Part shown: in pieces, positions 25,781-47,832 of the stretch
Layout of the letters: each line of letters begins with the position of its first letter
How positions within the stretch are numbered: the stretch's first letter is position 1
DNA from: an uncultured Prevotellaceae bacterium
Lineage (GTDB): Bacteria > Bacteroidota > Bacteroidia > Bacteroidales > Bacteroidaceae
Length of the DNA: 64,000 bases
Assembly (NCBI GenBank): GCA_900315105.1
Contig: OMXX01000022.1
Span: forward strand, 1-64,000
Reading direction: 5' to 3'
The notes under the pieces: model-generated
The model's input: only the letters and a program-made list of their open reading frames with translations
What the model was told of the DNA's origin: nothing
Databases searched by the model: none
Made by a program: the position numbers and the translations under genes

Positions 25781-25800
25781 ATAGTGAACCAACAAAAAAT

Positions 25801-25832
25801 ATGCCAGTCCTAAGTTTATTTAGAACTGGCAT
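25801..25832 (-). terminator. Terminator of the 15-gene operon
   Basis: ATGCCAGT and CTAA pair with TTAG and ACTGGCAT, about 12 bp with one mismatch and a short loop. On the minus strand ATTTTTTG follows directly, a classic intrinsic terminator, 20 bp past the last stop codon. Confidence 0.8.
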
Positions 25833-25852
25833 GATATAATCAAATTAAATGC

Positions 25853-27133
25853 TTACTTTATCTTATAAGCATAGAATGCTCCGGCATGACGGACGTAGAG
25901 AATGCCATTGGCAATGGTTGGGTGTGCCCAATAAGGTCCGCTACCCTTCATAATACGGAACTCGCTTACTACGTTGAAAGCATCAGGCACGGCTTTTACA
26001 AGTCCTACAATACCACGACGCTCGTCATAGCAGTATAGCTTGTCATCGGCTGTGATGATAGAGCCTTTGCCTTTTCCCTGCCAAGCAGTTTCGTATTTTG
26101 TCTTACCTGTGTTCCAGTCTATGCAGCACCAGTTGCCTGCATTGTTGTTAATCCAGTTAGAGCCGTAGATATAGTCGCCTACGAGTACATAACCGCCATG
26201 ATGGGTGTCAAGAGTCTCTGTGCGCCATACGCAAGTAACGCTCTTCAAATCGTCAGAGAGCTGGAGCTGGAAGCCGTTGATGTCATAACCATGACAGAAG
26301 AATATCTTACCGTCACGATAGAGTGGTGAATTGGTGGTGATGTTATCAAAACGGCTTGAATTGCCATAGTGCTTTGGTCCCCAATCGTCGAAAGTCCATT
26401 CTATCTCACCTGTCTCTGGATTAACACCGAAGACTGTGAGAGCAGAAGAGCCGATGATCTGTCGCTTGCCCTTATACTCGATAAGGATAGGTGACACATA
26501 GCCGCTCTTGTTGTTCAGGGCACGAGTCTTCCATACTTCCTCGCCTGTGAACTTATTGAGGGCAACCATAGTAGTCTTATCGCCACAAGGAGTATAGATT
26601 ACCTTGTCGTCATATACCAGCGGACACTCGCTTGTGCCCCACATGCCTGTGTTACGGCTGTACTTCTCGCCACCGTTTACAGACCATACTATCTTGCCGT
26701 CCTCAGCCTTGATACATACAACCTCGCCCATACCGCTCACCACGTAGAGATTGCCATCGCTATATGTAGGTGTTGTACGAACCTCTGGATAAGAACCAGT
26801 CCAACGGTTGCCATATTCAACAGAATATACTTTTGTACCGTCAAGCTTATAACAGGTGAGCATTTCCTTGTCTTCCTGATCATTGAGACCGGTGAGGTAG
26901 ATACGGTCGCCCACTACCTGTGCAGAGGAATATCCCTTTCCGGCATTTTCTACCTCAAAGATTTTCTGAGGACCCTCGGCAGGCCACTCGTTGAGCAGTC
27001 CCTTGTCTGGATAGGAACCATTGTTCTGGGCTCCACGCCATCCGTTCACGCTCGAACCTTTGGTGAACTGCGTCTGAGCCGTTGATGTGCAGGCACTTAC
27101 TACGAGTGCCATCATGATTAACACGTTTCGCAT
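25853..27133 (-). CDS. PQQ-like beta-propeller exported protein (operon gene 15)
   Basis: A 426-residue exported protein: signal VLIMMALVVSACTSTAQ, possibly a lipoprotein with Cys at about 13. The domain is an eight-bladed PQQ-like propeller of the BamB type. Blade signatures include VVCIKAEDGKIVWSV, MVALNKFTGEEVWKT and CCIDWNTGKTKYETAW. The opening WRGAQNNGSYPDKGLLNEWP is typical of periplasmic propellers. ATG 27133 overlaps the end of the permease gene by 16 bp; the longer ORF to 27316 would lie within that gene. No PQQ synthesis genes are seen, so the fold is probably structural. Confidence 0.85.
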   Translation of the reverse strand: MRNVLIMMALVVSACTSTAQTQFTKGSSVNGWRGAQNNGSYPDKGLLNEWPAEGPQKIFEVENAGKGYSSAQVVGDRIYLTGLNDQEDKEMLTCYKLDGTKVYSVEYGNRWTGSYPEVRTTPTYSDGNLYVVSGMGEVVCIKAEDGKIVWSVNGGEKYSRNTGMWGTSECPLVYDDKVIYTPCGDKTTMVALNKFTGEEVWKTRALNNKSGYVSPILIEYKGKRQIIGSSALTVFGVNPETGEIEWTFDDWGPKHYGNSSRFDNITTNSPLYRDGKIFFCHGYDINGFQLQLSDDLKSVTCVWRTETLDTHHGGYVLVGDYIYGSNWINNNAGNWCCIDWNTGKTKYETAWQGKGKGSIITADDKLYCYDERRGIVGLVKAVPDAFNVVSEFRIMKGSGPYWAHPTIANGILYVRHAGAFYAYKIK

Positions 27134-30039
27134 TGTCTGATTGTTTTTTTTGTTATACTTATATATATGATTATGCATGTAAATACTATTATTGGCAAGA
27201 GGCATAGGAGGAATGTGGAAAGACTGAAGCTGAAGGTAGGAAGGAGGACTGATATAAGCAGACACACTCCCGCACCTGTAAGTATAGCGAGCAGAGGCAC
27301 GATGAGTTGTTCGCATCGGAACATGCGCACTATGGTAGCTGTTGGGAAACCTAAAGCATGGTAAAGGCGTATCTCCTCACTACGTGCCACCAGATTCTTA
27401 CGAATGACAATAATCAGACTGACCAAACCGAGCATCAGACCGAGTAATCCGAGGGAGAGGAAGATACGGAGATAGGTATCGGTCACTTCGAAGAAATGAA
27501 GCAGACGCTCTACGGACGGGATAAGGGTGAAGCCGTAGTCGGAGAGAGATGTGGTGAGGGTGGAGGTTAGGGTGTTGGGTGTTGGGTGCTGGGTGTTGGG
27601 GTTAGAACCTTCTACCTTTGACTTTTGCCCATCTTCCCTTACCAATACCACACGACTGCCCATTTCATCAGGCCAGAGCTGACGGAAACAGTCGATAGGC
27701 ATAATGGCATTTCCATGGAAGATGCCTGTAGGATATTCGGCTGCTATAACGACATTAACCTTACGTCCGTCACTTGCGTGATAGGTAAGCGTATCACCCA
27801 CCTTCTTCATCATACTCCAAAGCAGAGCCTCAGAATCAATGGCGATGGGGATTGTAAATTTACTTTCTTCTTTATACTTTACACTTTCTACTTCAGAGAT
27901 ATTTATTCCGAATGCCTTCATATCTTCGAGAGACATGCCAAAGACTGAAGGATTCTCGACATGATTCAGATTCAAGCAGCTTGCCTCATCCTCAGTATGC
28001 TTTGGCAACTGAAGGAAACGGAGATCGGATGGCAGATTGTCAAGATGCAGATGATGGCGACCTGCGGCCGTGTTGAGGTCATACTGCAAAGGGATGCGAC
28101 TCTCGCCATAATACTGATATCCTCCTGTTGCGGATTCTGAAGAATGGGAAAAATCAGGACGGTTTACTCCCACGGCAAAAACTGTCAGCACACCTAATGC
28201 CAATGTGATGAATGAAAGGCTATGCTGGTGGCGGAAGTATTTTATAATTGATAATTGATAATCGATAATTGATAATTTATTTTGACCTTCGACCTTTGCC
28301 TTTTGCCTTTTGCCTTTTGACATTTTACTTTCGCCTTTTAACTTTTGACCTCCCCTGACAGTAAGCGCAAGAACGACAAAGGCAAGGATGACAGAGAGTA
28401 TAAAAGACAGAACAACCGTCATGATATTTGCATGTATGGCAAAACCATCGGTATGCACTACCCCACTCCACGGACCTGCCAAAAGCTGGAGAATGACAGC
28501 AGCGTAGGCATAGCCCAATAATACACCTATGGGTGCAGATACGAGCACTACAGGTACAGCCTCAGAGAACAGTCTTCGGAACACCTGACGCTTGCTGAAT
28601 CCCAAGGCATTGAGCAATTGTATCTCAGGGCGTCGCAACTGATACATCTCTGAAAGAGGGTTCTGCATCAGCAGTGTTGCAGCGATAATGATGAAGAAGC
28701 CTAAAGCCAGGAAGAGCGTACCGAAGTCGGTGCCATTCTGTGCAGCATCAAGGGCTGCTATGCGAGGATGCACCACCGCTATACCGAATGATTGCGGAGT
28801 GAGTTGTTTCATACGAGCGGTATCGCACATCACCCTTGTTGCAACACCATAAGAACCTATCCAATCCTTTCCTACGGCATCGAGGCTCACAAGAGCCTTG
28901 GGAGTTTGACGATATTCAGCCCAATAGTTCTCATCAGCCTTTGTTATACGACTCATGTCAATAGGCAGGTCGCTATTCCAGTCCGTACAACGCTTAACGC
29001 CCGATAGTCCCGGGAAATCGGCAGTTATCACGTCAGCCTGTTTCTGAAACTCACTTATAGGAACGATACGACTCACACGAAAACGATGGCTGCGTGTCAG
29101 TAATTTCTTCAATCCACCTTGTGAGACGTAATATTCCATAGTGACAGAATCGCCTACATGAGCATTCATACGTCGGGCGGCATAGTCTGTCAGTATTGTC
29201 TCATCGCCTTTCAGCCTATCAGTAGCCGTAACAAACGAATAAGGTATCGTGCAGAGGCTGTTGACAAAATAAGCCAGATAGCGGGTAGATGGGTTGAGAG
29301 TTTCCACTACACTCTGAGGCAGGAATACTCGGTCTATGCCAATTATACTGTCACTATTGTTTTGCAGTCCTGAGTATTCTGGTCGCCATACTCCGTGGAA
29401 GGTATCGGAAGTAATGTTGTTTGGCGATAGGATGACATTAACCTTACCCTTTACTCCCAATGCCTCTGCCAACTGCTGACGATTGATAAACACGTTAAGC
29501 GGACGTACCTGCTCATTATGAAGCAATATGTTTCCCCCATCCTGAGCCGACTTTATTCCCTTTACGGTGAGTCGCAACTGCGTGGCATGACTCTGGGAGA
29601 TGAAAAGCGAGCCAGAGCCAACGAGATTGTTTGAGGGCAGATGGAGGATGATGGGGTTAGGGGTTAGAGGGGAGGGGTTAGAGATCAGAGTTGAGAGTTG
29701 AGGGTTTAGAGTAGCCTCATCATAATTCAGGGAATCATTGTCGGTACCCCAAACCATGACAGGAATCATCTTGCCTTCAGAAGAAATGAAGCCTTCAGAA
29801 AGCAGATAGCCTTTGGCATCTGATAGAATTTCGTTGTTAAGAATGGAATCGCTCAGAAAACCTGTGCCAGTCTGTATGAGTGTTTCTGAGTTTCCAAGTC
29901 GTTCGCTGACACGTTCCATAAGAGAGCCACGCACAGAATCGCCTAAAACGAGACTGCCCGTAAGCACGGCTGTCATCACCGCGATAGCCACAGCGACGAG
30001 CCTATAGAATCTTATGTAATATGAACGACTTTTTTTCAT
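27118..30039 (-). CDS. ABC transporter permease, duplicated FtsX domains (operon gene 14)
   Basis: A 973-residue permease of the LolCE/MacB type. One membrane helix (about 15-35) precedes a large periplasmic region. A first FtsX domain lies near 440-570 (FFIIIAATLLMQNPLSEMYQLRRPEIQLLNALG), and a second one at the C-terminus has IRKNLVARSEEIRLYHALG. Such permeases extract lipids or lipoproteins from the outer leaflet or drive export of periplasmic substrates. ATG 30039 is preferred to TTG 30057. Three patches of degenerate mini-repeat DNA lie in frame inside the gene (27549-27630, 28239-28352, 29651-29712), lengthening the loops. It is paired with the ATPase upstream. Confidence 0.85.
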   Translation of the reverse strand: MKKSRSYYIRFYRLVAVAIAVMTAVLTGSLVLGDSVRGSLMERVSERLGNSETLIQTGTGFLSDSILNNEILSDAKGYLLSEGFISSEGKMIPVMVWGTDNDSLNYDEATLNPQLSTLISNPSPLTPNPIILHLPSNNLVGSGSLFISQSHATQLRLTVKGIKSAQDGGNILLHNEQVRPLNVFINRQQLAEALGVKGKVNVILSPNNITSDTFHGVWRPEYSGLQNNSDSIIGIDRVFLPQSVVETLNPSTRYLAYFVNSLCTIPYSFVTATDRLKGDETILTDYAARRMNAHVGDSVTMEYYVSQGGLKKLLTRSHRFRVSRIVPISEFQKQADVITADFPGLSGVKRCTDWNSDLPIDMSRITKADENYWAEYRQTPKALVSLDAVGKDWIGSYGVATRVMCDTARMKQLTPQSFGIAVVHPRIAALDAAQNGTDFGTLFLALGFFIIIAATLLMQNPLSEMYQLRRPEIQLLNALGFSKRQVFRRLFSEAVPVVLVSAPIGVLLGYAYAAVILQLLAGPWSGVVHTDGFAIHANIMTVVLSFILSVILAFVVLALTVRGGQKLKGESKMSKGKRQKAKVEGQNKLSIIDYQLSIIKYFRHQHSLSFITLALGVLTVFAVGVNRPDFSHSSESATGGYQYYGESRIPLQYDLNTAAGRHHLHLDNLPSDLRFLQLPKHTEDEASCLNLNHVENPSVFGMSLEDMKAFGINISEVESVKYKEESKFTIPIAIDSEALLWSMMKKVGDTLTYHASDGRKVNVVIAAEYPTGIFHGNAIMPIDCFRQLWPDEMGSRVVLVREDGQKSKVEGSNPNTQHPTPNTLTSTLTTSLSDYGFTLIPSVERLLHFFEVTDTYLRIFLSLGLLGLMLGLVSLIIVIRKNLVARSEEIRLYHALGFPTATIVRMFRCEQLIVPLLAILTGAGVCLLISVLLPTFSFSLSTFLLCLLPIIVFTCIIIYISITKKTIRQCETC
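27549..27630. repeat. In-frame mini-repeat patch in the permease gene
   Basis: Degenerate GTTGGGTGTTGGG and GGTTAG units are read in frame as an Asn/Pro/Thr-rich stretch of the permease. Similar patches lie at 28239-28352 (ATTGATAATTG and CTTTTGCC units) and 29651-29712. Confidence 0.55.
28239..28352. repeat. In-frame mini-repeat patch in the permease gene
   Basis: Two different simple repeats abut here: ATAATTGATAATTGAT units and CCTTTTGCCTTTTGCC units. They encode a Lys-rich then Ile/Ser-rich insertion between membrane segments. Confidence 0.55.
29651..29712. repeat. In-frame GGGTTAGAG patch in the permease gene
   Basis: GGGGTTAGGGGTTAGAGG-type units are read in frame as Ser/Pro/Asn-rich residues in the periplasmic domain. 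Confidence 0.55.
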
Positions 30040-30082
30040 TTTTATGTTTAAAGTCAAAAGACTAAGGTCAAAGGTCTAAGGT

Positions 30083-30772
30083 CTAGTTTAGAGTTGGACA
30101 AAATACCTTGCCTTCTTTAAGCACATATCGTTTATCGGCAATGGAAGCCAATTCCTCTGAGTGGGTGACAAGTATAATGGTCATGCCCATCTGAGTGTTT
30201 ACGTGCCTTAACAACTGCCCAACCTCCTTGGCATGCTGACTATCAAGCTGTCCTGTAGGCTCATCTGCCAAGAGCAGTTTAGGACGCATAATAAGGGCAC
30301 GGCATAGGGCTACACGACTTTTCTCTCCTCCAGAAAGAGTTTCTGGCAACTGTTGCAAAATATCGCTTATACCCATTTGTTGTGCAAGCTGCATTGCCCA
30401 CTGCGTTTCCTCCGTTGTAGGTTTCTTATGGATTGCCAATGTAGGTATCAGGATATTCTGCAATGCCGTGAACTGAGGCAGGAGACGGTAATCCTGAAAC
30501 ATAAATCCAATCTGACGGTTACGAATCTGCAACAGCCTTGCTTCATCATCGTATGGTATCTGCTCTTCGCCTAAAAGATAGGTACCACCATCAGGCTTCA
30601 GAAGCGTTCCAAGCACATTCAGCAATGTGGTCTTGCCTGTACCTGATACGCCAGTCACAGCCACAAAGGCACCCTGCTCTACTTCCAAACTAAGTTCGTC
30701 GAGCACAATGCGCTGCCCGCCATTGCCATCGGCAAAGCTCTTTTGTATATTGTTCAGTTCGATATATGCCAT
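30083..30772 (-). CDS. ABC transporter ATP-binding protein, LolD/MacB-like (operon gene 13)
   Basis: A 229-residue ATPase subunit. Walker A is GVSGTGKTTLLNVLG, the signature LSGGEKSRVALCRAL, Walker B LLLADEPTGQLD and the H-loop ILVTHSEE. All are intact. It pairs with the FtsX permease 43 bp downstream. The ORF can be read to 30817 with GTG, but ATG 30772 (MAYIELNNIQKSF) fits family starts. Its place directly after the redox and terpene genes suggests transport of the pathway product or of its lipoproteins, which is inferred. Confidence 0.9.
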   Translation of the reverse strand: MAYIELNNIQKSFADGNGGQRIVLDELSLEVEQGAFVAVTGVSGTGKTTLLNVLGTLLKPDGGTYLLGEEQIPYDDEARLLQIRNRQIGFMFQDYRLLPQFTALQNILIPTLAIHKKPTTEETQWAMQLAQQMGISDILQQLPETLSGGEKSRVALCRALIMRPKLLLADEPTGQLDSQHAKEVGQLLRHVNTQMGMTIILVTHSEELASIADKRYVLKEGKVFCPTLN

Positions 30773-30813
30773 GTTATAGTTGAGGGTTGAGAGTTTAGAG
30801 TTGAGTGATAAAT

Positions 30814-32835
30814 TCACTCTTCACGTTCTCCAAAGCACAGCAAGGTGCCACGTGCAGTTTGTATGTAAAAATGCGAACCTATAACAAGCGGTTGCGCTAT
30901 GATTTGTTCTCCTGTTTCATATTCCCAGAGCTGCCTTCCTGTTGAAACTTCATGAATGCTGACAATACCTGTCTTGGTACATACCAGCAGACGGTTATCC
31001 ACCAATATAGGACTACACTCACCCGTATCACCTTTAAGTGAGGCAAACCATTTCTCCTTTCCATCCTTGCGGTCGAGACACACCAAACGGCGGTCGGTTG
31101 TCAATAGGTAGAGTGCATCCTCAGTAACAACAGGTACGGAAAGCATTCCACCATCATCCTCCGCAGCAGGAAGCAACTTCCGATGGTTCGCTATGCGACC
31201 TCCATCGGCAAGGGTAAGTTCATATACATCGCCACGATAATCAGCCACATACACATTATCCCCATCAACCACAGGAGAGGCAGGGATATAGGCATCTAAT
31301 TTTAGAGAATCGGCAGGAATTCCTGTTGTTCCGTTAACGATACGTACCCATGAATCGCAGCCTCCGAAGAGGACATAATCCTGCCAAAGCACAGCAGCAC
31401 CATTGATATAATTACCTGTTTCTACACGATTGATAAGCTTACCAGTAAGAGGCGAGAGCGTGTACATGTAATTGTCGTAGCTGCCTATGAAGAGGGCTGA
31501 AGGGGAGGGGTTAGAGGTTATGGTTGGTTTCGCCATAATCTGCCCTTCTGTGGCAAAGCTCCATCGCTCTGAACCGTCAGGCAAAGACAGAGAACGCACT
31601 TTACCGTCAAGCATTCCAACATAGAGCGTAGAATCCTCTATTGTAAACGAAGCCTCCATATCAGAACCAAGTGCAAGACTAAGCCTTTGCTCACCTGTTT
31701 CCTCATCGAGCCCCACCATCTGTCCGTGCTTGTCGCAAGTGAGCACCATGCCGTTATATGCGTCAGGAGAAGCCACCGTCCTCACATTGTGACGATGCTC
31801 CCACAACAGCTTTGGATGTTCTGGAAGTTCAGCATTTACCGACATACTTTCAGGCAAAGAACGACAGCCTGTGAGCAAAACCAACAACGGAAGCAGGAGT
31901 TTCAATACAAGGGCACCAGTAGGACATAATTCTGCAATTTTTTCGCTAATATGATTCTTGCTCTCCTCCGGGACAACCACCCGCATATCAAAACCACGGC
32001 GTTCAAAGGTAAAGCCGTCGTTAGAGTTATATACGCACAGACCGCAACGAATGCACTTGGCAGGTTCATAAACCAAATTTCCTATGACAGGAATCTGTTC
32101 CTTGACAGGCAATGAAGACTGTAATCCATAGCGAGTAACCTTGATACCAGCCTCCGTGGAATACTTACGCAACTTACATTTTTCCTTTCCGTCACAGGCA
32201 CAATGCAGACAATGGCTCGGCTGCGTATAGATTTCCTTCAAACGCAGTTTCTCCTTATCGGTGAAACGACCTAAACGGCTGTTAAATTTAGAGGTTATAG
32301 AGGAGGACTTAGAGGTTTGCGACGAGTGTTGGTTATCCTCCAAAAGGCTTCCAAGTATCTCTCTAATCTTTACCCCTTCGTCAACGGTAGAACGCCTACA
32401 TGCTTTCTCGCACGGAGCCTTGCAACCTTCACATGACACACCGCCCAGCAATTCACGAGCCTCATCCAGTTTGCCAAGATCATAGAGATTGATTACACCT
32501 GCTACATCTATGCCACGCTGACAAACTATCGAGCATGGCCCCTCGCAATCGGCACGATGGTCACTCAACAGCAGTTCCAGAGAAAGGCGACGCAGTTCCT
32601 TTACTTCATCACTATCAGTCTCTATCTGCATACCTTCGTATGGCTTTGTGGAGCAAGAAGGCACCATTTGTCCTGTCCTTAAATCCTTCACCATACACAC
32701 CATGCACGAAGGCTGATGCTCTTTTCCTTCCGCATAGCACATTGAAGGCACATGAATGCCTATTTCTCGCAGTTCCTCAATAAGAGGGCGCTGACCGCTG
32801 ACCGATATATCCTTGTTATTTACGCTTATTCTCAT
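30814..32835 (-). CDS. NuoG-like Fe-S protein fused to a membrane-anchored PQQ-like propeller (operon gene 12)
   Basis: A protein of about 673 residues with two unlike halves. The N-terminal half has a plant-type [2Fe-2S] domain (MCYAEGKEHQPSCMVC, later SC) and a GltD-like Fer4_20 region (DCEGPCSIVCQRGIDV, CEGCKAPCEKACRRSTVDE). A CLHCACDGKEKC cluster and a NuoG-type CIRCGLCVYN with LCPTGAL follow. Then comes a hydrophobic stretch with a lipobox-like end (LLLPLLVLLTGC), followed by a complete BamB-type propeller. Clusters inside and propeller outside, joined by this helix, is the simplest topology. The start ATG 32835 overlaps the NuoEF gene. In-frame mini-repeats occur at 31497-31525 and 32280-32335. 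Confidence 0.8.
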   Translation of the reverse strand: MRISVNNKDISVSGQRPLIEELREIGIHVPSMCYAEGKEHQPSCMVCMVKDLRTGQMVPSCSTKPYEGMQIETDSDEVKELRRLSLELLLSDHRADCEGPCSIVCQRGIDVAGVINLYDLGKLDEARELLGGVSCEGCKAPCEKACRRSTVDEGVKIREILGSLLEDNQHSSQTSKSSSITSKFNSRLGRFTDKEKLRLKEIYTQPSHCLHCACDGKEKCKLRKYSTEAGIKVTRYGLQSSLPVKEQIPVIGNLVYEPAKCIRCGLCVYNSNDGFTFERRGFDMRVVVPEESKNHISEKIAELCPTGALVLKLLLPLLVLLTGCRSLPESMSVNAELPEHPKLLWEHRHNVRTVASPDAYNGMVLTCDKHGQMVGLDEETGEQRLSLALGSDMEASFTIEDSTLYVGMLDGKVRSLSLPDGSERWSFATEGQIMAKPTITSNPSPSALFIGSYDNYMYTLSPLTGKLINRVETGNYINGAAVLWQDYVLFGGCDSWVRIVNGTTGIPADSLKLDAYIPASPVVDGDNVYVADYRGDVYELTLADGGRIANHRKLLPAAEDDGGMLSVPVVTEDALYLLTTDRRLVCLDRKDGKEKWFASLKGDTGECSPILVDNRLLVCTKTGIVSIHEVSTGRQLWEYETGEQIIAQPLVIGSHFYIQTARGTLLCFGEREE

Positions 32836-35206: not shown

Positions 35207-35210
35207 ACCG

Positions 35211-38764: not shown

Positions 38765-38770
38765 AACACC

Positions 38771-39799
38771 TTAACTAACTACTTTCAACGGACATTCTAT
38801 AGTACAAGTCCCACAGAGCGTTTGTGCTGAACGACGGGCATCATACTGAAACACCGAAATTTTATTGCCTCCTGCTACGATGAGTTTATCACCAAGCATG
38901 CGCATATCGTATGCCGAATGTCCACCTCCCAATGCCTTGTCATCAAGCAGAATACTATGGAACGTACCATCGCTTCCGTAGCAACTGATACGAGGCAATC
39001 CTTTCTCACTCGTAAGCAACTCTCCTTTTTCCGTTGCTATGATCTGCACCGGATTGCAGCAACCGCTGAACTCTCCAGCGCCCATACCTGACTTTCCAAA
39101 CGATGCCACATATTCACCATTGACCGTGTATTGCTCCACTATATGACGACCTGGATTACTACAGAACACATGACCATTAATGTTTGTTATGCCAAACGAA
39201 TAGCTGGGCACTACGAAACCGTTAGGACTCTTTATGAATCGTGCCAACGTTCCGTCAAGCTTATACTGACATATATTCTTCGCTGCTGCATCGGTTACAA
39301 AAACACCTTCTTTCAATACCGTAAGCTGGCAATAGTCGGCATCATCACTACATGCCTCCCATTCCTGAATAGCCTCCCCCTGTCTGTCATACACCTCAAT
39401 TCTCGATGGAAAAAGGAGATAGAGTTTGTCATTATAGACTGCCACATCACGTAAGCCGCTACGCACAGAAAAATTGCCCTGCAACTCTCCGTTTATTCCG
39501 TATCTATATATGTTATTCGACGTACCCACCACTATCTGATCGCCAATCAATTCAATTGCCGTGATTTCATCGGGTACCACAAAACCAAACGTACGACGGT
39601 AAGGCGATACGAACTGCACGCGCTCCAGTTCATCCTTCATGCGCTTCGCCTCCTTGCCATCATAGAATATATCAGCAGGATTAGTCAGCATTTTCCACAG
39701 ACTACGCCCCATCACACCGGCAAAGGCTGCTCCCAGCATGATAGAACCTCCCACTTGCAGAAACCTGCGTCGTGACATATTGTTCTGTTCTTTCTCCAT
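38771..39799 (-). CDS. Tat-exported NHL-type beta-propeller with C-terminal Cys motif (operon gene 7)
   Basis: A 342-residue protein with Tat signal MSRRRFLQVGG and a hydrophobic stretch. The body is a six-bladed NHL/SMP30-like propeller (ITAIELIGDQIVVGTSNNIYRY, YDRQGEAIQEWE, VEQYTVNGEYVASFGKSGMGAGEFSGCCNP). It ends with LCGTCTIECPLKVVS. This CxxCxxxCP tail resembles part of a ferredoxin motif and, with another cysteine donor, could hold a cluster or contact the polyferredoxin encoded 6 bp downstream. Tat export of a plain propeller would be unusual, so folding with a cofactor is plausible. Confidence 0.8.
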   Translation of the reverse strand: MEKEQNNMSRRRFLQVGGSIMLGAAFAGVMGRSLWKMLTNPADIFYDGKEAKRMKDELERVQFVSPYRRTFGFVVPDEITAIELIGDQIVVGTSNNIYRYGINGELQGNFSVRSGLRDVAVYNDKLYLLFPSRIEVYDRQGEAIQEWEACSDDADYCQLTVLKEGVFVTDAAAKNICQYKLDGTLARFIKSPNGFVVPSYSFGITNINGHVFCSNPGRHIVEQYTVNGEYVASFGKSGMGAGEFSGCCNPVQIIATEKGELLTSEKGLPRISCYGSDGTFHSILLDDKALGGGHSAYDMRMLGDKLIVAGGNKISVFQYDARRSAQTLCGTCTIECPLKVVS

Positions 39800-39804
39800 A
39801 TATT

Positions 39805-41241
39805 CTAATTTTGGGTTATCTTAAAACATTTCAACGTCTTGGCATCACGTAGCAACAGCATTCCGTCAGCGTATGCCATCGGTCCCCATGCGTCTGCTCC
39901 ATCTTTGATGACGTTTTGCCTATTCCTTAATCTCATCTCCTTACCTTTTATTTCATACACGAACAATTGTCCGTCTTCTTTCAAAGCAAAGAGATATCCG
40001 TCTATGACGATATAAGGGCCTAAACCAAAACGCTCGTCATTGGCAGATGTCCATACGGCTTTGTGCAAGTCTGTGGGCTGATAGATACACACGCGCTCTC
40101 GCATTCCTCCTCCGTCTTTTGGTAGAATGGTTATGACATTACCCTTGTATAGTATAGGGGTCTGTTGCTCACTACTCATACCCTTGTCTGCCTTATATTG
40201 GTCAACAACCCTTGCCTGCCAACCGTTACCTGCCCTATCCACTTGCAGCAATGCACCTCCTGCACCATATCCCGCCACAAGGAATATTTGATTGCTGCTG
40301 AGTTGTAGCGGTGACGGTGCAATGACACTAGGCTGCCATTGGTTAGTAAACCAAAGTATCTTTCCTTTGTCTGCCCCTTCAGCAGAAACACCACAAACTC
40401 CACCAATGCCAGCATATACTAAAGTTGATTTTCCACCCAAAGTCATCGGCATCACCGATGAATGCGACATTTTCAGTTTTTTTTCATTAGAAGCTGCCCA
40501 GCGTATAGCTCCTGTTGCCACATTGAGACCTACCATCAGTGTGTCTGCTCCGGCAGGAGCTACGACAAGTTCATCACCCACTATCAAAGGGCACTGACCT
40601 GCATACCAGAACGGCACTTCCGTAGAGAACCTTTTTTTGAGATCCAGCGTCCATAGTAAATCGCCTGTCTCACCATTGCAGCACATTACATGTCCTTCAG
40701 GTCCGATGGTCATCACCTTGCCATCCTCCGTTACCGCAGGTATGGTACGGCTGAATCCGTGATTACGCTTCATCGGAACTCGATACCAACGTCGCCATAG
40801 CTCTGCTCCCGTCTTCAAGTCGAAGCATCTGAGGGCATCGCTGGAAAGCTGCTCATTATAGTCAAGCATATAGACGCGTCCTTTCCATATAGCAGGAGCA
40901 GCATGCCCCTCACCTGTCTCAACAGTCCATAGCTCCTTAAAATTTCCTTCCGCTAACTTTATAGGAACGGCATGACTTACAATGTTAGTCCTGTCTTTTC
41001 CTCTAAATCCTGACCATTGATCTTTCATGCCTTCCGTAAAGGTGGCATCGTATTTCATAAAGAACTCGCCTATCACTACGTCATCTGCCTTACGCGCACT
41101 ACCCACAGGACGCTTGTCTGCTCCCGGTTCGAACTTAACGAATCGGGAACTAGGGTCATATAGATGCCAGCCTATCAGGACTACAGTCCAAAAGGCAATG
41201 GTGGCAAGTGTGATATATCGACTTCTTTTCTTCATTTTCAT
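39805..41241 (-). CDS. Membrane-anchored PQQ-like beta-propeller protein (operon gene 6)
   Basis: A 478-residue protein with one N-terminal helix (TLATIAFWTVVLIGWHLY) and an eight-bladed BamB-like propeller. Blades include RCFDLKTGAELWRRW, MCCNGETGDLLWTLDL, LVVAPAGADTLMVGL, and a start WSGFRGKDRTNIVSH typical of the family. Its ATG overlaps the stop of the cyclase gene (ATGA) and it ends 5 bp before the Tat propeller gene. The catalytic Asp/Ca2+ site of quinoprotein dehydrogenases was not seen. Confidence 0.85.
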   Translation of the reverse strand: MKMKKRSRYITLATIAFWTVVLIGWHLYDPSSRFVKFEPGADKRPVGSARKADDVVIGEFFMKYDATFTEGMKDQWSGFRGKDRTNIVSHAVPIKLAEGNFKELWTVETGEGHAAPAIWKGRVYMLDYNEQLSSDALRCFDLKTGAELWRRWYRVPMKRNHGFSRTIPAVTEDGKVMTIGPEGHVMCCNGETGDLLWTLDLKKRFSTEVPFWYAGQCPLIVGDELVVAPAGADTLMVGLNVATGAIRWAASNEKKLKMSHSSVMPMTLGGKSTLVYAGIGGVCGVSAEGADKGKILWFTNQWQPSVIAPSPLQLSSNQIFLVAGYGAGGALLQVDRAGNGWQARVVDQYKADKGMSSEQQTPILYKGNVITILPKDGGGMRERVCIYQPTDLHKAVWTSANDERFGLGPYIVIDGYLFALKEDGQLFVYEIKGKEMRLRNRQNVIKDGADAWGPMAYADGMLLLRDAKTLKCFKITQN

Positions 41242-42971
41242 AACATGGGGCGAAGAGCCGTGAGAATATAAATGGGGTTATACAAGTCTTCAGAGTACCA
41301 TAGACGTGAGAAATAGAGTCCGATGGGTTCGCGACTATAGAGAGTACCTGTCTCATATCGGGCATAGAGATAGTCAACTGCACGACGGATAGCCTCATCT
41401 GTCTCAGGAAGGAAATGGCGTAAAGCACCTATAGCCTTAGCTGTGAGTGTCACTTTCGAAGGAACACCACGATTGCCTCCCCAACCTCCATCAGGATTCT
41501 GACATTTCAACAGGAAATCCTTGGGAGCCAAAGTCAATGTGATTCCTGCAGTCTTCATATAGTCGATGATAGTCGCAGCACCATAGACAGGGTTGGCTTC
41601 CACTTTAAACTCTAAGCCCTCAACTCTAAACTTTGAGGTTGCCTCTTGATCTCCGAACCATAACGGATTCCATGATCCCTCATCCATCATCGTTTTAGTT
41701 AACCATGACTTCATGCGAGCAATACTCTTACGGCATCGCGACTGCTGACTGTCAGGCAGGACATCGCACCACAGACTCATAGCAAGGATGGCATGGGCTG
41801 TAATATCGGGTGTGCTACGGTCGAATGGCAGCTTTCCCCATCCACGGCAAAAAGTCGGCATACCACCATCACGGTTCTGGAGCTTTATAAGCCAGTCTAT
41901 GCCAGCTCCTACCTCTGGAACATACTGTCCTTTGAGCAAGGAATGAAGCGCAACGAGTGCACCCGAAGTATCATCGCCATCAGGCACACTACCACTCAGA
42001 TTTGTCCATCCCCATCCTCCTGCCGGTGCTCCAGTAAAAGGATGCCGCTGCTTAGTGGCATTCTGACGGATGGTGTCTGATAAAGCCTTACAATCGGCTT
42101 TTGATAACATATCTCTTAAAGCACGGCAGCTTAGTGACGTTACCCATCCCGCAAGGTTAGTGTCGATGGGCCATGCTCCATCCTCACGCTGCGTCTGATG
42201 AAGAAACTGAGCACAGCGATGTGTCACAGGATGTTCCTTCAGTCCTGCCTCTGCCATACACATAGAGACGAATGCCGTCAAGGGTGCTGCCTCAAGAAAA
42301 CCTCCGTCTTCTGGCTGCAAAGTGGTAAGCACACGGAGTGCTTTAGGCACAAATAGTTCTCGTACTGGACTGAACAATGTCTTACGTCGCCTGTTCTGCA
42401 ATATTCCAACGGCTATCAATGCCGGGATAGCATAGCTTACCACAGGCAAGTTGAGGAATCGGAACGTACTCTGTGGTAATACTGCCAGTTCAAAAGGGAA
42501 TGGAGGTATACGCTTCCAGTTGCTTATGACTCCTGCCAAGGCGCACATCATCAAGATAGGCACAGAGAAAGTGAGGTCTTTACCATAATAGGCTAATACA
42601 CCATCGATAAGCTGCGCCTCATCTTTCCAACCCAACGTCTCACGAATATAGCGTTTAGTGGCATCAGGCACCTGATGCAGATGACTCAGAGCTGTGTATG
42701 ACAGAAGCGTCGCCGTCATATTTACAGGACTTTCTATACTATCACCCCATGCGCCTTCCGGCTTCATGGTCTGCTTAAGCCATTGCATACCACGTTCTAT
42801 CTCCTTTTGATATTCCTCGTGGTCTATCACACTCAGGGCGAATATAGATACAGAGGTGGATATGGCAGAACTTGAAAGGTGTCCTTCCCACATTCCGTCT
42901 TCGCGTCTCATAGAGAGCAGTCGCTTTGACGCATCGTTTACTATCGTCTGTATCTTCTCTTCCGTTGTCAT
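41238..42971 (-). CDS. Squalene-hopene-cyclase-like class II terpene cyclase (operon gene 5)
   Basis: A protein of about 577 residues with the two alpha/alpha barrels of class II cyclases. QW-type repeats include QTQREDGAWP (about 260), QNRDGGMPTF and KCQNPDGGWGG. The segment GGWGWTNLSGSVPDGDDTSGAL contains DGDD at about 331-334, matching the DxDD acid that starts squalene and hopene cyclisation. Two hydrophobic segments at 130-205 may dip into the membrane. Typical SHCs are about 630 residues. ATG 42971 overlaps the upstream stop (ATGA); ATG 42980 is possible. The substrate may come from the prenyl synthase of the same operon. A mini-repeat patch lies in frame at 41603-41650. Confidence 0.8.
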   Translation of the reverse strand: MTTEEKIQTIVNDASKRLLSMRREDGMWEGHLSSSAISTSVSIFALSVIDHEEYQKEIERGMQWLKQTMKPEGAWGDSIESPVNMTATLLSYTALSHLHQVPDATKRYIRETLGWKDEAQLIDGVLAYYGKDLTFSVPILMMCALAGVISNWKRIPPFPFELAVLPQSTFRFLNLPVVSYAIPALIAVGILQNRRRKTLFSPVRELFVPKALRVLTTLQPEDGGFLEAAPLTAFVSMCMAEAGLKEHPVTHRCAQFLHQTQREDGAWPIDTNLAGWVTSLSCRALRDMLSKADCKALSDTIRQNATKQRHPFTGAPAGGWGWTNLSGSVPDGDDTSGALVALHSLLKGQYVPEVGAGIDWLIKLQNRDGGMPTFCRGWGKLPFDRSTPDITAHAILAMSLWCDVLPDSQQSRCRKSIARMKSWLTKTMMDEGSWNPLWFGDQEATSKFRVEGLEFKVEANPVYGAATIIDYMKTAGITLTLAPKDFLLKCQNPDGGWGGNRGVPSKVTLTAKAIGALRHFLPETDEAIRRAVDYLYARYETGTLYSREPIGLYFSRLWYSEDLYNPIYILTALRPML

Positions 42972-43690
42972 AACAGACATCCTAATGCCAGCAGACCATA
43001 AAATTCATATTCAACATCGCCTTGCTCATCAAGCAGGGTAGCAGCAAAACTACCGTCATCCTGCCAATGTGCCTCGATGAAAGGGCGTACTTCGTATTTA
43101 AGGGTGACTCCTTTCTCATAAAGGGCAAAGAGCGCAACACCTGTACTAAGCATATCAGGCAAGACTATTCCTTCATGAGCCTTGAAACCTCCAGTCTCAT
43201 GCTGCATAGATAGCAGTTTCTCCACAAGCTCGACATCATGTTCCTGCGTAATGGCAAGTCGTGCAGCCCATGCGTTGGTTCCTTCTCCACTACCATGACT
43301 CTGGTAGATATCAAAGAAACGGAGAATTGTATCTCCACTCGCCCTCTCCAATAGAGATGGAGGCATAAACCTTGGCAAGGACATGAGACTGTCGATTTGC
43401 TTACATACTGTAAAAACAGTCTGATGAAGAGCATCTAGCTCTGCCGTTTCAATTGCTTTCAAGTATGCCTTTCGTCGAGAACTGTCAGTACTGATACCTA
43501 AGACATAGCATAGCATCCAACCAAACATCGTGTAGTATAGGTCTGGTTGCCCACCACGATTCATAAAAGCCTCATCCGTCATACGCTGACTGTTCACAAA
43601 CTGACATACACGCTCACGGGCATCAGCATTTAACTGTTCTGCCCCATGCCGCAAAGCCTGCAACAATCGATATGATAATGTACGCGCCAA
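42968..43690 (-). CDS. Alpha/alpha-toroid protein, prenyltransferase-beta-like (operon gene 4)
   Basis: A 240-residue protein resembling half of a terpene cyclase or prenyltransferase-beta toroid: PDLYYTMFGWMLCYVLG, an ETGGFKAHEG turn, MLSTGVALFALYEKGV, and WQDDGSFAATLLDEQGDVEYEFYGLLALG. The DxDD acid is absent. It could form the missing part of, or a partner for, the adjacent cyclase, or bind a prenyl chain. The only start preserving the first helix is TTG at 43690; the first internal ATG would remove 34 residues. Its stop overlaps the cyclase start. Confidence 0.7.
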   Translation of the reverse strand: MARTLSYRLLQALRHGAEQLNADARERVCQFVNSQRMTDEAFMNRGGQPDLYYTMFGWMLCYVLGISTDSSRRKAYLKAIETAELDALHQTVFTVCKQIDSLMSLPRFMPPSLLERASGDTILRFFDIYQSHGSGEGTNAWAARLAITQEHDVELVEKLLSMQHETGGFKAHEGIVLPDMLSTGVALFALYEKGVTLKYEVRPFIEAHWQDDGSFAATLLDEQGDVEYEFYGLLALGCLL

Positions 43691-43747
43691 TTGTTTTCTT
43701 AATTTTAAAAGGAAGAGATGATTGTGAGATTAAGAACTTATGATCTC

Positions 43748-45244
43748 TTAATTTCTCAAAATTCTTTCCGTTGCCTGAAATAGTAGTCGCTTTAACTCGA
43801 AACTGTCTATCTCTGCCAATGATGCAAGAGCACGGGTTTGATATTCTTCCACCATGACCGACATCTTATCCCTTATCTCTTCATCTGATATTCCCGGGAA
43901 TTGTAGTCTGAGTGCATATACAGCCGATGGCTTGGCAGTATGCTCGCTGTTGATATCAGACATATCATCCTTCAATTGATAGGCAATGCCAAGTGCTTCC
44001 GAATAGTCATGAAGCTTTTGGGCTGTATGTTCGTCACCATTTGCTGAGAGCAATCCCAAAGAAAGAGCCACTTCAAAGGCTGGCACTGTCTTCTGACGGA
44101 ATATCTGCAATACCTCCTCAATTGTTACGGGTTGTCCTGGCTGCCAAGATAGTTCTGCTCCCTGTCCGAGACAAAGGCTGACATGGGCATTGGCTACAAC
44201 GCCAAGCAGTTCCTTATTTGGTAGGGATGCCAACAGCCGATAACCCTCACCAAGCAACAGGTCTCCAATATTGATTGCCATCGCCTCGCCATATCGTGCA
44301 TGAACGGTAGGCTGACCATAACGCTCTTCATCGTTGTCCTGTATATCATCATGCACAAGAGAAGCCTTATGAAAGCACTCCACGGCTATAGCAGCGCGCA
44401 TCACCTCGTCAGGAATTGAAAAACGATCTTCAACCTTGCCCTTTTCACTTTCTACTTTTATCGCAGCATAGACAGCAGCCAACAGGAACGGACGCCATCG
44501 ACTACCTCCACACAGCATCCACTCTAAAGCAGCTTTTGTCGTGGTGTCTCTTACTGGAGTAAGTACCGAGGCAAGTGCCTCTGGCTCAAACCATTTATCT
44601 ACCTCTTCGCGCACACTGTCGTAATCAAGTAGCACCATTGTTTCTTCACTACGCTTCGATAACAACTGCGCTACATAGTCGGTATCTACATGAGTATCCT
44701 TGCATCCTCCATCGTTAAGAGCCACGGCAATGCCAGGAACGGCATGACTGACAAGCAGAGGGAAAGCCTTTTCAAGGGAATCAAGACAACTAACACCAAT
44801 AACCGCATCTACCACATGCTGACGTATCAGTTCGATAACGGATGTGAAACCCTCCGCAACCATCGAAAGCATTCCTATATGGTCTGCCTGAGTCTGTAGG
44901 TCAGGAATGACACAGCGCTCACAGCGATGACATAGCAGTCCGAGGTCATCCATTTCTCCCTCGCATCGCTTGGAGTCTCTCAGGCATTTAGGCAACAACA
45001 ACAGACGGCGCGAATATGGGATGCTTGCCACCATAGGCAACCACACAGCATTGTGTATCTCGACCATCAGCCAGTCTCGCAATCCCTCATCAAGATTATT
45101 CTTCCTGACAAACTCAGCAGCCAATGCTTCAAGGTCGCTGAGCATCACAGGCGGATGCAATGCCTTTTCGCTGACAAAGTCGTGAGCCAGCTGGCGCAGT
45201 CTTCTGCGTTCAGCCAACGTCTGAGGTATAGTGCGGTTAGCCAT
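43748..45244 (-). CDS. DUF116-polyprenyl diphosphate synthase fusion (operon gene 3)
   Basis: A 498-residue two-domain protein. Residues about 75-195 match DUF116: LLPKCLRD, a cysteine set with CHRCERCVI, VAEGFTSVIELI, DAVIGVSCLDSL, and GCKDTHVDTD. The cysteines could bind a metal or Fe-S centre. Residues 230-498 are a trans-isoprenyl diphosphate synthase with the first Asp-rich motif HDDIQDNDEERYG (about 298-310) and the second YQLKDDMSD. This enzyme condenses isopentenyl diphosphate onto an allylic primer. The combination ties chain synthesis to a probable metal-dependent activity. ATG 45244 overlaps the radical SAM stop; TTG 45253 is less likely. Confidence 0.85.
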   Translation of the reverse strand: MANRTIPQTLAERRRLRQLAHDFVSEKALHPPVMLSDLEALAAEFVRKNNLDEGLRDWLMVEIHNAVWLPMVASIPYSRRLLLLPKCLRDSKRCEGEMDDLGLLCHRCERCVIPDLQTQADHIGMLSMVAEGFTSVIELIRQHVVDAVIGVSCLDSLEKAFPLLVSHAVPGIAVALNDGGCKDTHVDTDYVAQLLSKRSEETMVLLDYDSVREEVDKWFEPEALASVLTPVRDTTTKAALEWMLCGGSRWRPFLLAAVYAAIKVESEKGKVEDRFSIPDEVMRAAIAVECFHKASLVHDDIQDNDEERYGQPTVHARYGEAMAINIGDLLLGEGYRLLASLPNKELLGVVANAHVSLCLGQGAELSWQPGQPVTIEEVLQIFRQKTVPAFEVALSLGLLSANGDEHTAQKLHDYSEALGIAYQLKDDMSDINSEHTAKPSAVYALRLQFPGISDEEIRDKMSVMVEEYQTRALASLAEIDSFELKRLLFQATERILRN

Positions 45245-46451
45245 AAGCTCCAAATCCGAAAAAATAGCGTTTCTTTAATGTCTTATACAGTGGATTCTTC
45301 TCAGGTATGGCTTTGTCCTTCATATCGTGACCAGCCACATGATGCATCCGTTTCAGTTCCTCAAGGAACGTGGCGCGTGAGGTTGTCTCAAAACCACCGT
45401 GTGATTCCAGGAAATCAGCAAGTTTCTCAGGAGATTCCATCAATATGCAGCCTCGCGTTGTCTCGGCTATCATCTTTCGCATATCTGCCAGAAACTCCGA
45501 CTTCTGACATATCTCCACAAGATTACTGCCTTCGGAATTTAGTCGTTCCATCGCCATCTGCAATGGTGGACAGAACTCTACATAGCCTGATGGCGATATG
45601 TGGTGACTCATACCCGTAGCTCCCGGACATATTGCCTTGCCTTCTGCATCCCAATAGACATCAATGATAAGAAGAGGCGCATTGCGACGCTGCTCCACGA
45701 TGAATTCACGCAACCGATGTATCTGCTCTTGACTTAGCGCATTCTCCGGATGGGCATCAGCACCCACAGGACGATATATATAATACCACATAAAAGCAGC
45801 TCCTTCACGAGCCATATCCTCTAAATGCTTACGACAAACAAGGTCGTCAAAGTTCGACTTGCAGATGCTTGCAGCAACACCGAAGATAAGCTTTGCCTCA
45901 CGACACATTCGCAGTCCTCTGAGTGTACGTTCATATACATCATCCCTACCCCTTCGGCGGTCACTCTCATCGCGCAGTCCTTCTATGCTTATTAATGGCG
46001 TTACATTGCCAAGCTTATTCATGCGTTGAGCAATCTCTGCTGTAATCAGCGTTGCATTGGTGAAAAGCTGAAAATAACAGTCTGGATGCTTCGCAAGCAC
46101 GTCGAAGAGTCCGCGATACATCAGCGGCTCTCCTCCTAATATTCCAAAGAAATAGCTTCCCTGAGATTTAGACTGACGAATGATACCGTCAAGCTGTTCG
46201 GGTGTCAGACTCTTCCTGCCTCCCCTTGTCACCCAGCATCCGGAACATGCCAGGTTGCAAGCCTCCGTCACCGATATCATCATAAAGGCAGGAAAGAAAG
46301 GTTTACCTTTGTTTACCCTTCTCTCAAAAGCCGCCATATTCGAGAGATTGCGCAATCCAAAGTTCCTGACAAACTTCCACAGCAACCGAGGGGTTGTTCC
46401 TTTGACAACCCGACACGAAGCTTTTACTATGGATGTATAATCAGATAACAT
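45237..46451 (-). CDS. Radical SAM enzyme with C-terminal SPASM-like region (operon gene 2)
   Basis: A 404-residue radical SAM protein. The cluster motif CNLACSGC has cysteines 65, 69 and 72 (CxxxCxxC). It is followed by the GGEP motif (GILGGEPLMY), LFTNATLI and SIEGLRDESDRRRG. The C-terminal part has cysteines in ICPG, VEFCPP and RGC that could bind an auxiliary cluster. The general fold is near HpnH and SPASM proteins, and HpnH acts on hopanoids, which is suggestive beside a cyclase gene. The substrate cannot be stated. It lies upstream of the prenyl synthase and overlaps it. Confidence 0.85.
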   Translation of the reverse strand: MLSDYTSIVKASCRVVKGTTPRLLWKFVRNFGLRNLSNMAAFERRVNKGKPFFPAFMMISVTEACNLACSGCWVTRGGRKSLTPEQLDGIIRQSKSQGSYFFGILGGEPLMYRGLFDVLAKHPDCYFQLFTNATLITAEIAQRMNKLGNVTPLISIEGLRDESDRRRGRDDVYERTLRGLRMCREAKLIFGVAASICKSNFDDLVCRKHLEDMAREGAAFMWYYIYRPVGADAHPENALSQEQIHRLREFIVEQRRNAPLLIIDVYWDAEGKAICPGATGMSHHISPSGYVEFCPPLQMAMERLNSEGSNLVEICQKSEFLADMRKMIAETTRGCILMESPEKLADFLESHGGFETTSRATFLEELKRMHHVAGHDMKDKAIPEKNPLYKTLKKRYFFGFGAYG

Positions 46452-46474
46452 TGTTATTTGTTCCCCTCATAAGG

Positions 46475-46560
46475 GGAGGTTAGGGGTTAGAGTTTAGAGT
46501 GGAGAGGTTAGGGGTTAGAGCCTTAATCCTTTGACTTTCGACTTTAGCCTTTAGACTTTG
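46475..46560. repeat. Mini-repeat patch between operon genes 1 and 2
   Basis: GGGGTTAGAG units and CTTTGACTTTCGACTTTAG units fill the 92-bp gap, the longest inside the 15-gene run. Both repeat types also occur inside coding sequence of the same operon. Confidence 0.55.
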
Positions 46561-47179
46561 AATCATCCTTAAACAACGGTGTGCCGAAATTTCTCCTCTC
46601 CAACAGTCTTGCCCTGAAGGCATCAGCATAGAGCATTGAATGGTCAACTCTCAGTGCCTGCTCTTCCTGTTCGGCTCCACCATTGATAGGGCTTCGACCG
46701 TATTTAGGGAAGATGATTGCCTCCGACGGACAGTTACGGGCACAGGCAGGACAGTTGTTCTTGCAATTTGTAGGATTCACCACCCGCACACGGTCATCAA
46801 CCATTTCATAAACACCAAAAGGACAGAAATCGAAACACTTTCCGCATTCCGTGCAGCGATCCTTATCGATTACAGGATACCAGGCATCATCACCGGGTCC
46901 AGTATCGCCAATGCCTTCCCTAAGGTCAATAAGCTCCTTGACCTCTACACCTCGCCAAAGCAACAAACTCCTTACTGCCCGTTTATGGCAGGCAGCTATC
47001 GTTCCTTTAGCCAGACGAGAGACCTCAGCCTCATCACCTTTTTCCATCAACTCGCATAAATCATCCACGTACTCAACTTCCCGACCTTCTGCTTCGGCAT
47101 GTGCAACAAGTTCCGAAAGTTTTTCCTGTGAAATAAACTTACGCCAGCGACAGGTGCATATCACCAATCGTTCTGTCAT
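46544..47179 (-). CDS. 4Fe-4S dicluster protein (operon gene 1)
   Basis: A 211-residue protein. The N-terminal half (LVICTCRWRKFIS, then AACHKRAVRSLLLWRGVEVKELIDLRE) resembles the cysteine-bearing segment seen in HdrA-type and related Fe-S proteins. The C-terminal half has CTECGKCFDFCPFG and NCKNNCPACARNCPSEAI, binding two 4Fe-4S clusters. A soluble electron donor for the radical SAM enzyme encoded next is a likely role, which is inferred. It is the first gene of the operon, about 40 nt after the predicted transcription start. Confidence 0.8.
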   Translation of the reverse strand: MTERLVICTCRWRKFISQEKLSELVAHAEAEGREVEYVDDLCELMEKGDEAEVSRLAKGTIAACHKRAVRSLLLWRGVEVKELIDLREGIGDTGPGDDAWYPVIDKDRCTECGKCFDFCPFGVYEMVDDRVRVVNPTNCKNNCPACARNCPSEAIIFPKYGRSPINGGAEQEEQALRVDHSMLYADAFRARLLERRNFGTPLFKDDSKSKG

Positions 47180-47226: not shown

Positions 47227-47234
47227 CAAAGATA
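47227..47234 (-). promoter_or_regulatory. -7 box of the 15-gene operon
   Basis: TATCTTTG on the minus strand matches TAnnTTTG. Transcription would start near 47220, 40 nt before the first ATG. The -33 region lacks a perfect TTTG. Confidence 0.55.
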
Positions 47235-47628: not shown

Positions 47629-47632
47629 GAAA

Positions 47633-47800: not shown

Positions 47801-47832
47801 CTTTTTTAGGAAAAGACAAAAGCCCTAAAAAA

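Follow-up and report, generated by a model that had tools for sequence, protein, structure and literature searches.

Soluble electron modules of the NuoEF type include HydABC and its kin. NapG and NapH together form a quinol dehydrogenase, the clusters of which are located on the cytoplasmic and the periplasmic side of the membrane (excerpts of PMC5449189), and excerpts of PMC7002350 describe a complex I in Bacteroides fragilis that is devoid of NuoEFG, the NADH-binding subunits. A fusion of DUF116 to a polyprenyl synthetase is found in Pirellula staleyi (Psta_0175), where an electron-transfer role was suggested for DUF116; other DUF116 proteins have no synthase half (excerpts of PMC5898192). 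The corresponding portions of PMC7002350, PMC13188914, PMC5449189 and PMC6797604, unlike those of PMC5898192, do not touch the DUF116 fusion. Here, an operon of 15 genes is described, which is located on the minus strand at positions 25853..47179 of a 64-kb stretch of DNA (the window) from an uncultured Prevotellaceae bacterium (contig OMXX01000022.1). Its first five genes, module T (T1 to T5), encode a ferredoxin, a radical S-adenosylmethionine (SAM) enzyme, a DUF116-polyprenyl synthase fusion, an alpha-toroid protein and a DxDDT cyclase. The other ten genes, module E, encode propellers, a twin-arginine (Tat) polyferredoxin, a NapH-like protein, NuoE-NuoF, a NuoG-like protein and an ATP-binding cassette (ABC) ATPase with an FtsX-type permease. 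Gene order and sequence motifs of both modules are conserved, each module is also found without the other, and the two co-occur in Bacteroidales. It is tentatively proposed that T builds a cyclic isoprenoid lipid by a route that does not involve squalene and that E moves electrons from NADH to the periplasm, with the T lipid as their likely acceptor. Literature searches found no paper that appears to describe the combined system, in agreement with a preliminary description of this DNA.

Conservation of the operon

The preliminary description had announced 15 packed genes, and all 15 open reading frames (ORFs) were found in the same place, running from position 47179 to 25853. Most gaps between successive ORFs are a few bases long or are overlaps (92, -17, 57, -13, -4, 5, 6, -8, -20, 4, -41, -4, 25 and -199 bp), and over-long ORF starts are probably behind the biggest overlaps. 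The gene content named at that time agrees with the Pfam matches, which comprise radical SAM, DUF116 and polyprenyl synthetase, SQHop, NuoE-NuoF, Fer2, 4Fe-4S, BamB/PQQ, ABC and FtsX domains.

At least 571 stretches of the genomes searched encode a match to a profile of the DUF116-synthase fusion. Eighty loci were kept, 61 of which are of the Bacteroidales type (including L042, which is titled Eubacteriales) and 19 of which belong to other groups (including L079, which is titled Bacteroidales and has a different gene content). The counts for the Bacteroidales-type group refer to matches on the same strand, and loci on contigs that end too early were left out of them. Among the matches listed, the nearest locus is L001 of an uncultured Bacteroidales bacterium, in which 11 genes follow one another as in the window and are 93-100% identical over the best segment, and the remaining operon genes share 92-97% identity with L101. 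In Bacteroidales-type loci with more than 2.5 kb upstream, both the ferredoxin and the radical SAM gene are always present (52/52), and the toroid and cyclase genes are found in 50 and 49, respectively, of the 51 loci with more than 4.5 kb downstream. Where more than 11 kb are available downstream, propeller A is present in 38 of 39 loci, the Tat propeller in 37, and the Tat polyferredoxin, NapH and propeller B in 36 each; NuoEF, which falls near the end of the analysed stretch, was found in 26 of the 39. Taking both locus groups together, the ferredoxin gene lies two ORFs before the fusion gene in 59/72 loci and the radical SAM gene one ORF before it in 60/78, followed by the toroid T4 one ORF (69/77) and the cyclase two ORFs (61/72) after it. 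All 16 Bacteroidales loci that were read further have ABC and FtsX genes behind the NuoG/propeller pair. Distance matrices of T and E genes correlate with r 0.73-0.94 (23 loci), which fits joint inheritance and equally plain vertical descent.

Outside the Bacteroidales-type group, the first genes of the operon recur. Ten loci of other phyla extend more than 11 kb downstream, and Tat polyferredoxin, NapH and propeller B were found there in none of them (0/10); in L071, which is one of the ten, the E genes are located upstream. T without E nearby is also seen in Planctomycetota, Verrucomicrobiota and a metagenome-assembled genome (MAG) of Luteitalea. T and E are adjacent in one Phycisphaerales genome, and a Rhodopirellula MAG contains both modules on different contigs. 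The E loci that lack T mostly keep the same gene order. L149, from a Bacteroidales genome without a T match, carries an E cassette close to the type of the window (57% for propeller A), the genes of which are interspersed with unrelated ORFs. The Prevotellaceae MAG JAISIN01 has two DUF116-synthase loci, L033 and L046; cyclase and E genes follow at L046, and neither was detected within the 11 kb examined at L033.

Co-occurrence of T and E

In Bacteroidales, T was called by a match to the fusion at E 1e-60 and E by a match at 1e-20 to its marker, the Tat polyferredoxin of the E3 type; weaker relatives may be missed at these thresholds. Among 247 Bacteroidales genomes, T was found in 11 and E in 42. 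Both occur together in nine genomes compared to 1.9 expected (Fisher p 2.3e-6, and p 5e-5 without the two genomes known beforehand), in tests that treat genomes as independent and ignore shared ancestry. The synteny and co-occurrence check across Bacteroidales suggested in the preliminary description thus turned out positive: the same gene order recurs, and 9/11 T genomes carry E. The association is also seen in genomes with divergent T, five of seven of which carry E elsewhere (1.1 expected, p 0.0012; the four genomes with window-like T were left out). Three of these five T contigs are 3.3-15 kb long, so that linkage of T and E is possible there; in G623, T is located on a 177-kb contig and E on a different contig.

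E occurs without T in 33 of the 42 E genomes. Since T in Bacteroidales is mostly accompanied by E (9/11) and E mostly lacks T (33/42), T is more likely a client of E, and any dependence appears to be that of T on E. The same counts bear on the second option of the preliminary description, the use of the isoprenoid as an electron carrier, here taken as a lipid that E cannot do without and that acts as a quinone-like membrane shuttle between NapH and periplasmic proteins. The shared operon would fit such a carrier, as would the quinol dehydrogenase formed by NapGH pairs (excerpts of PMC5449189); however, with 33 E genomes devoid of T the lipid cannot be obligatory for E in general, and an enzyme for a redox ring is not evident in the cassette, which makes this explanation improbable.

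In Planctomycetia, the fusion profile at E 1e-40 matched 132 of 198 genomes, at most 129 of which support a fusion; in G326, G331 and G494, the synthase half alone matches, in ORFs of 400-440 amino acids. The E marker was found in 8/198 genomes, and the idea that E is strictly needed for T was rejected, since most T-bearing Planctomycetia lack the E marker. A cyclase gene is located near the fusion gene in 18 of 20 Planctomycetia loci and a ferredoxin gene in 13; whereas T comprises five genes in Bacteroidales, it often consists of a smaller core in Planctomycetia. E is present in 3/8 Planctomycetia with the closest T (p 0.002), or in 2/7 without G020 (p 0.02), using a threshold that was picked after seeing the scores. 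A phylum-level sample of Bacteroidota gave one match in 296 genomes, the centre genome itself, and is too sparse for use. According to record titles, cultured T-bearing strains include Parabacteroides sp. ZJ-118, Carboxylicivirga linearis and Mangrovibacterium marinum.

Module T: a putative pathway to a cyclic isoprenoid

All 15 genes of the operon are located on the minus strand. T3 (43748..45253), the true start of which is probably just inside the called ORF, consists of an N-terminal DUF116 (PF01976) and a C-terminal polyprenyl diphosphate synthase (PF00348). The DUF116 half scores 104.7 bits compared to a gathering cut-off of 25 and possesses seven invariant cysteines (C90, C97, C108, C111, C114, C156 and C184), including a CxxCxxC motif. 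In the synthase half, both aspartate motifs are invariant, and the motif FHKASxxHDDxxD is present in 100/101 ORFs, the exception being a fragment of 220 amino acids. A small residue is found five positions before the first aspartate motif, which, by a general rule, would fit a product longer than C20. Structure models reached a predicted local distance difference test (pLDDT) score of 87.8, both for the fusion and for the DUF116 half alone. In both models, a helical part is followed by a four-stranded Rossmann-like sheet, and, judged by residue numbers, C90, C156 and C184 are positioned shortly past strand ends; this placement of the cysteines suggests a possible cluster with an open iron site.

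T5 (41238..42980; PF13243/PF13249, SQHop) is a class II (DxDDT) squalene-cyclase-like cyclase. The DGDD motif reported for it in the preliminary description is part of the acid motif PDGDDT at residues 333-338, in which D334, D336, D337 and T338 are invariant in 62/62 aligned sequences. The nearest solved structure in a profile search is squalene-hopene cyclase (E 4.6e-35). T5 is 20-28% identical to seven paralogues from T-bearing genomes, and the 14 members of its subfamily form a separate clade with a support of 0.70. Seven Bacteroidota genomes were searched with PF13243 at E 1e-10; T5 was the sole match in six of them, and G001 had no match. Squalene/phytoene synthase (PF00494) is absent from 7/9 Bacteroidota T genomes, five of them isolates, and from 8/12 T-bearing genomes overall, which are relatives of the window. 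The substrate of T is therefore likely to be a polyprenyl product rather than squalene, and squalene was discarded as an unlikely substrate in most hosts for the same reason. T4 (42968..43690; PF00432) is a small alpha-toroid protein of the prenyltransferase type.

The radical SAM enzyme T2 (45237..46451; PF04055) contains C65, C69, C72, C275 and C335 in 57/57 sequences and C294 in 56/57, corresponding to CxxxCxxC and three further cysteines. No family cut-off was reached among the matches listed (25 of 50 matching families), and T2 is replaced by a radical SAM protein of the B12 type in some Phycisphaerae loci. T1 (46544..47179) is a 4Fe-4S ferredoxin-type protein with Fer4 domains in Pfam and a cysteine-rich N-terminal domain, whose CxC...DxC...AC pattern also occurs in a separate small gene of other phyla. 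A likeness of this N-terminus to HdrA, noticed by eye, was dropped, as a profile search against solved structures did not bear it out; two matches alone had E<0.001, and their names look like those of designed proteins.

Module E: a putative electron path to the periplasm

E6 (32816..35206; PF01257, PF01512, PF10589, Fer4) is a fusion of NuoE and NuoF with a C-terminal dicluster ferredoxin. It scores 463.6 bits with the NuoF equivalog TIGR01959, below the cut-off of 558.65, and the NuoF domains themselves are present. E7/E8 (30814..32856; Fer2_4, PQQ_2) combines a NuoG-like Fer2 protein with propeller D, and its start is probably inside the called ORF. The NuoG-like fusion noted in the preliminary description is indeed a single ORF in the window; however, 13 of 16 related loci covering that point have two separate ORFs. 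The NuoG-like protein of a planctomycete relative has a pyridine-nucleotide flavin domain. E4 (36958..38193; Fer4_5) is a NapH-like membrane Fe-S protein with an extra C-terminal ferredoxin, in which CxxxCP pairs and 15 conserved cysteines were found (42 sequences); its score of 60.5 bits with TIGR02163 is under the cut-off of 213.05. E3 (38186..38764; Fer4 matches) is a NapG-like twin-arginine polyferredoxin. Inspection of 15 rows revealed a twin-arginine start and 16 invariant cysteines, a number that would suffice for four 4Fe-4S clusters.

Five propellers had been claimed for the operon, and five were found. Propeller A (E1, 39805..41241; PF13360) has an N-terminal hydrophobic anchor (segment 9-27) and a vicinal pair, Cys187-Cys188, which is invariant in 43 sequences. 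E2 (38771..39799) is an NHL-like propeller with an N-terminal twin-arginine motif and a GCCNP motif in 19/19 rows; its Pfam match is weak (E 0.008), yet its profile matches NHL-repeat propeller chains in the PDB. Propeller B (E5, 35211..36977; PF13360) has hydrophobic segments in its N-terminal part, at 4-22, 78-96 and 127-145. Propeller C (E11, 25853..27316; PF13360), whose true start is inside the ORF, is a probable lipoprotein as judged by eye, and a propeller of this type sits after FtsX in most extended relatives.

E9 (30083..30817; PF00005) is an ABC transporter ATPase and E10 (27118..30057; PF02687 in two stretches) an FtsX-type permease. The preliminary description had assigned the export of the isoprenoid to this pair, and ABC/FtsX genes near T in the Verrucomicrobia locus L060 and in 2/20 Planctomycetia loci (L142 and L143) gave reason to consider such a role. 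The idea found no specific support and was abandoned, since ABC/FtsX genes also accompany E in 8/8 extended Bacteroidales loci without T (L190-L197). In these loci, a glycosyltransferase gene and then the ABC and FtsX genes follow E, directly one after the other in seven of them and with intervening ORFs in L190; the encoded proteins are 39-45% (ABC) and 25-29% (FtsX) identical to those of the window.

Proposed mechanism and its alternatives

In the tentatively preferred reading, the synthase half of T3 would extend a prenyl diphosphate, and the Fe-S DUF116 half, fed by the ferredoxin T1, might reductively process the allylic diphosphate. T5, together with T4, would initiate cyclisation through protonation at the DxDDT motif, and T2 would alter the cyclised product by radical chemistry. 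Electrons from NADH would enter at NuoF, pass through the Fe-S clusters of NuoE/NuoG and then NapH on its cytoplasmic side, and reach the polyferredoxin E3 and the propellers in the periplasm. Finally, the T lipid may take electrons from E in the periplasm, which is the weakest step of the proposal.

Several observations speak against this proposal. The reductive step assigned to DUF116 is a guess, because fold searches with the DUF116 half returned generic Rossmann-type folds as sole matches and DUF116 proteins without a synthase exist. A PF00494 protein is present in 2/9 Bacteroidota T genomes, and an enzyme for a quinone-like or other redox head-group is not evident in Pfam scans of the cassette. 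The Fisher tests disregard shared ancestry, as mentioned above. The five-gene set T is inconstant in Planctomycetia, because a radical SAM gene is near the fusion gene in 6/20 loci and a toroid gene in 5/20. T and E are not associated in Planctomycetia, where T is found in 6/8 E genomes (p 0.47 with 132 and p 0.43 with 129 T genomes). Moreover, both modules separate freely across genomes. The single pathway envisaged in the preliminary description is thus not supported: E is missing from 2/11 Bacteroidales T genomes and from most T-bearing Planctomycetia, and T is missing from the 33 E genomes mentioned above.

The strongest rival explanation builds on these distributions and regards T and E as independent, co-regulated modules without chemical coupling, which share an operon in one lineage through a common induction under anoxic, envelope-related conditions; the T lipid would then be a hopanoid-like, membrane-ordering compound without a redox link. 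Most Planctomycetia with T lack E, most Bacteroidales with E lack T, and the missing association in Planctomycetia is in line with this view as well. However, the association in Bacteroidales persists for divergent T that is not located beside E (5/7, p 0.0012), and a Phycisphaerales genome has the two modules side by side as well. Independence is considered rather unlikely.

A further explanation is suggested by cysteine motifs and by genes that recur near T. T could make a lipid-linked cofactor or modification, with the vicinal-cysteine propellers as acceptors, and E could keep periplasmic cysteines or metal sites reduced. The invariant Cys187-Cys188 of propeller A and the GCCNP motif of E2 are compatible with such a function, as are a CobW-type GTPase in 15/80 T loci, a MIP (aquaporin-family) channel in 9/80, and GcvH-like lipoyl proteins in 12 of 20 Planctomycetia T loci (among L130-L148). 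A stretch E-x-x-K-A, in which a lipoyl-lysine is usually embedded, is found in all 12 of these GcvH-like proteins. However, the E2 protein of L149, a locus without T, likewise contains GCCNP, so that the cysteine sites are independent of T, and this explanation is considered very improbable.

If the preferred reading, a squalene-independent T lipid reduced by E, is true, T makes a cyclic terpenoid without squalene, which is undescribed in the papers found and whose pathway core is present in about two thirds of the sampled Planctomycetia and in scattered Bacteroidales. E, the marker of which was found in 42/247 sampled Bacteroidales, would take electrons from NADH across the inner membrane to its outer face. 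This would bear on bacteria such as B. fragilis: because the complex I of B. fragilis lacks NuoEFG, a NuoEF of the E type would give such bacteria a separate point of entry for NADH. In a more far-reaching version, which has a small chance of being correct, the T product would be a non-squalene cyclic isoprenoid that forms a new class of redox lipids in the membrane, beside quinones and methanophenazine, and E would be a new transmembrane machine, driven by NADH, which charges this lipid on the periplasmic side, with a pathway core widespread in Planctomycetia and joined to E in Bacteroidales.

Flanking signals and neighbouring genes

A putative intrinsic terminator on the minus strand (25801..25832) follows the operon and consists of a stem of 13 pairs (25832 to 25801), after which a T run is found, as the preliminary description had indicated. 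A scan of positions 25500-26000 found two terminator-like sites over both strands compared to 0.3 expected in shuffled sequences. The putative -7 promoter box TATCTTTG (47227..47234, minus strand), which matches the pattern TAnnTTTG about 48 bases before the first start, is present at 47234-47227 as previously noted; however, it is weak promoter evidence alone, because the pattern occurs 21 times on the same strand of the window. About 1 kb of AT-rich intergenic DNA (47300-48300) lies between the operon and a sulfate permease gene and contains, as seen by eye, short repeated motifs similar to GGTACAATGGTACAATAGTACAAT and TTGACT. The permease gene (48391-50055, minus strand) encodes a sulfate-permease/STAS protein (PF00916), and the product of a gene further upstream (51283-51903, plus strand) belongs to the chloramphenicol-acetyltransferase fold family (PF00302); no link to the operon was shown for either of them.

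Near T in other genomes, LytTR regulators were found in 18/80 loci and likely histidine kinases in 16/80. Further channel genes are present in L102, L115, L116 and L117 (by eye) and in L136 (26% match). In L011 (1662-4409) and L102 (14824-17315), the MIP channel and the CobW GTPase adjoin a secreted arsenate-reductase-like protein, again as judged by eye, which hints at a possible connection of some T loci with arsenic. GcvH-like proteins are also encoded near T at L065, L066, L070, L076 and L080 (Planctomycetota and the Luteitalea MAG), sometimes together with a NifS-like aminotransferase and a CobW GTPase. In L071 (14603-20719) and L111 of a Phycisphaerales genome, T is followed by HemB-, HemC-, Lrp/AhbA-type, HemA- and AhbC/D-like radical SAM genes, identified by eye, which look like genes for heme synthesis.

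Comparison with known systems

The hopanoid pathway, comprising squalene-hopene cyclase, HpnCDE and HpnH, resembles T in that a class II DxDD cyclase is co-encoded with a radical SAM enzyme. However, T5 forms its own clade and scores 68 bits with TIGR01507, far below the cut-off of 431.1, and T2 reaches 42.7 bits with the HpnH family TIGR03470, the cut-off of which is 225.05. In addition, squalene synthase/HpnCDE (PF00494) is missing in 7/9 Bacteroidota T genomes, and the synthase of the operon is fused to DUF116. The same fusion as in T3 is known from Psta_0175; in the excerpts of PMC5898192, however, it is unconnected to a cyclase, a radical SAM enzyme or an NADH-driven module. E9 (PF00005) and E10 (PF02687) are a predicted transporter similar to ABC exporters of the LolCDE/MacB type, but a pair of this type accompanies E in genomes without T, too. 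With the NuoEFG arm of complex I, E6 and E7 share NuoE, the flavin mononucleotide-binding NuoF and the Fer2 N-terminus of the NuoG type. Pfam scans of the 15 genes detected neither the quinone-reducing membrane arm of complex I (NuoH, L, M and N) nor the H-cluster or hydrogenase domain of the FeFe-hydrogenase HydABC, and no NapA or molybdopterin domain was found in the same scans. The NapGH quinol dehydrogenase resembles E in the combination of a membrane protein, for which E4 is a putative NapH-type counterpart, with a Tat polyferredoxin (E3); in contrast to NapGH, the operon pairs E3 and E4 with a NuoE-NuoF/NuoG-like unit and five propellers.

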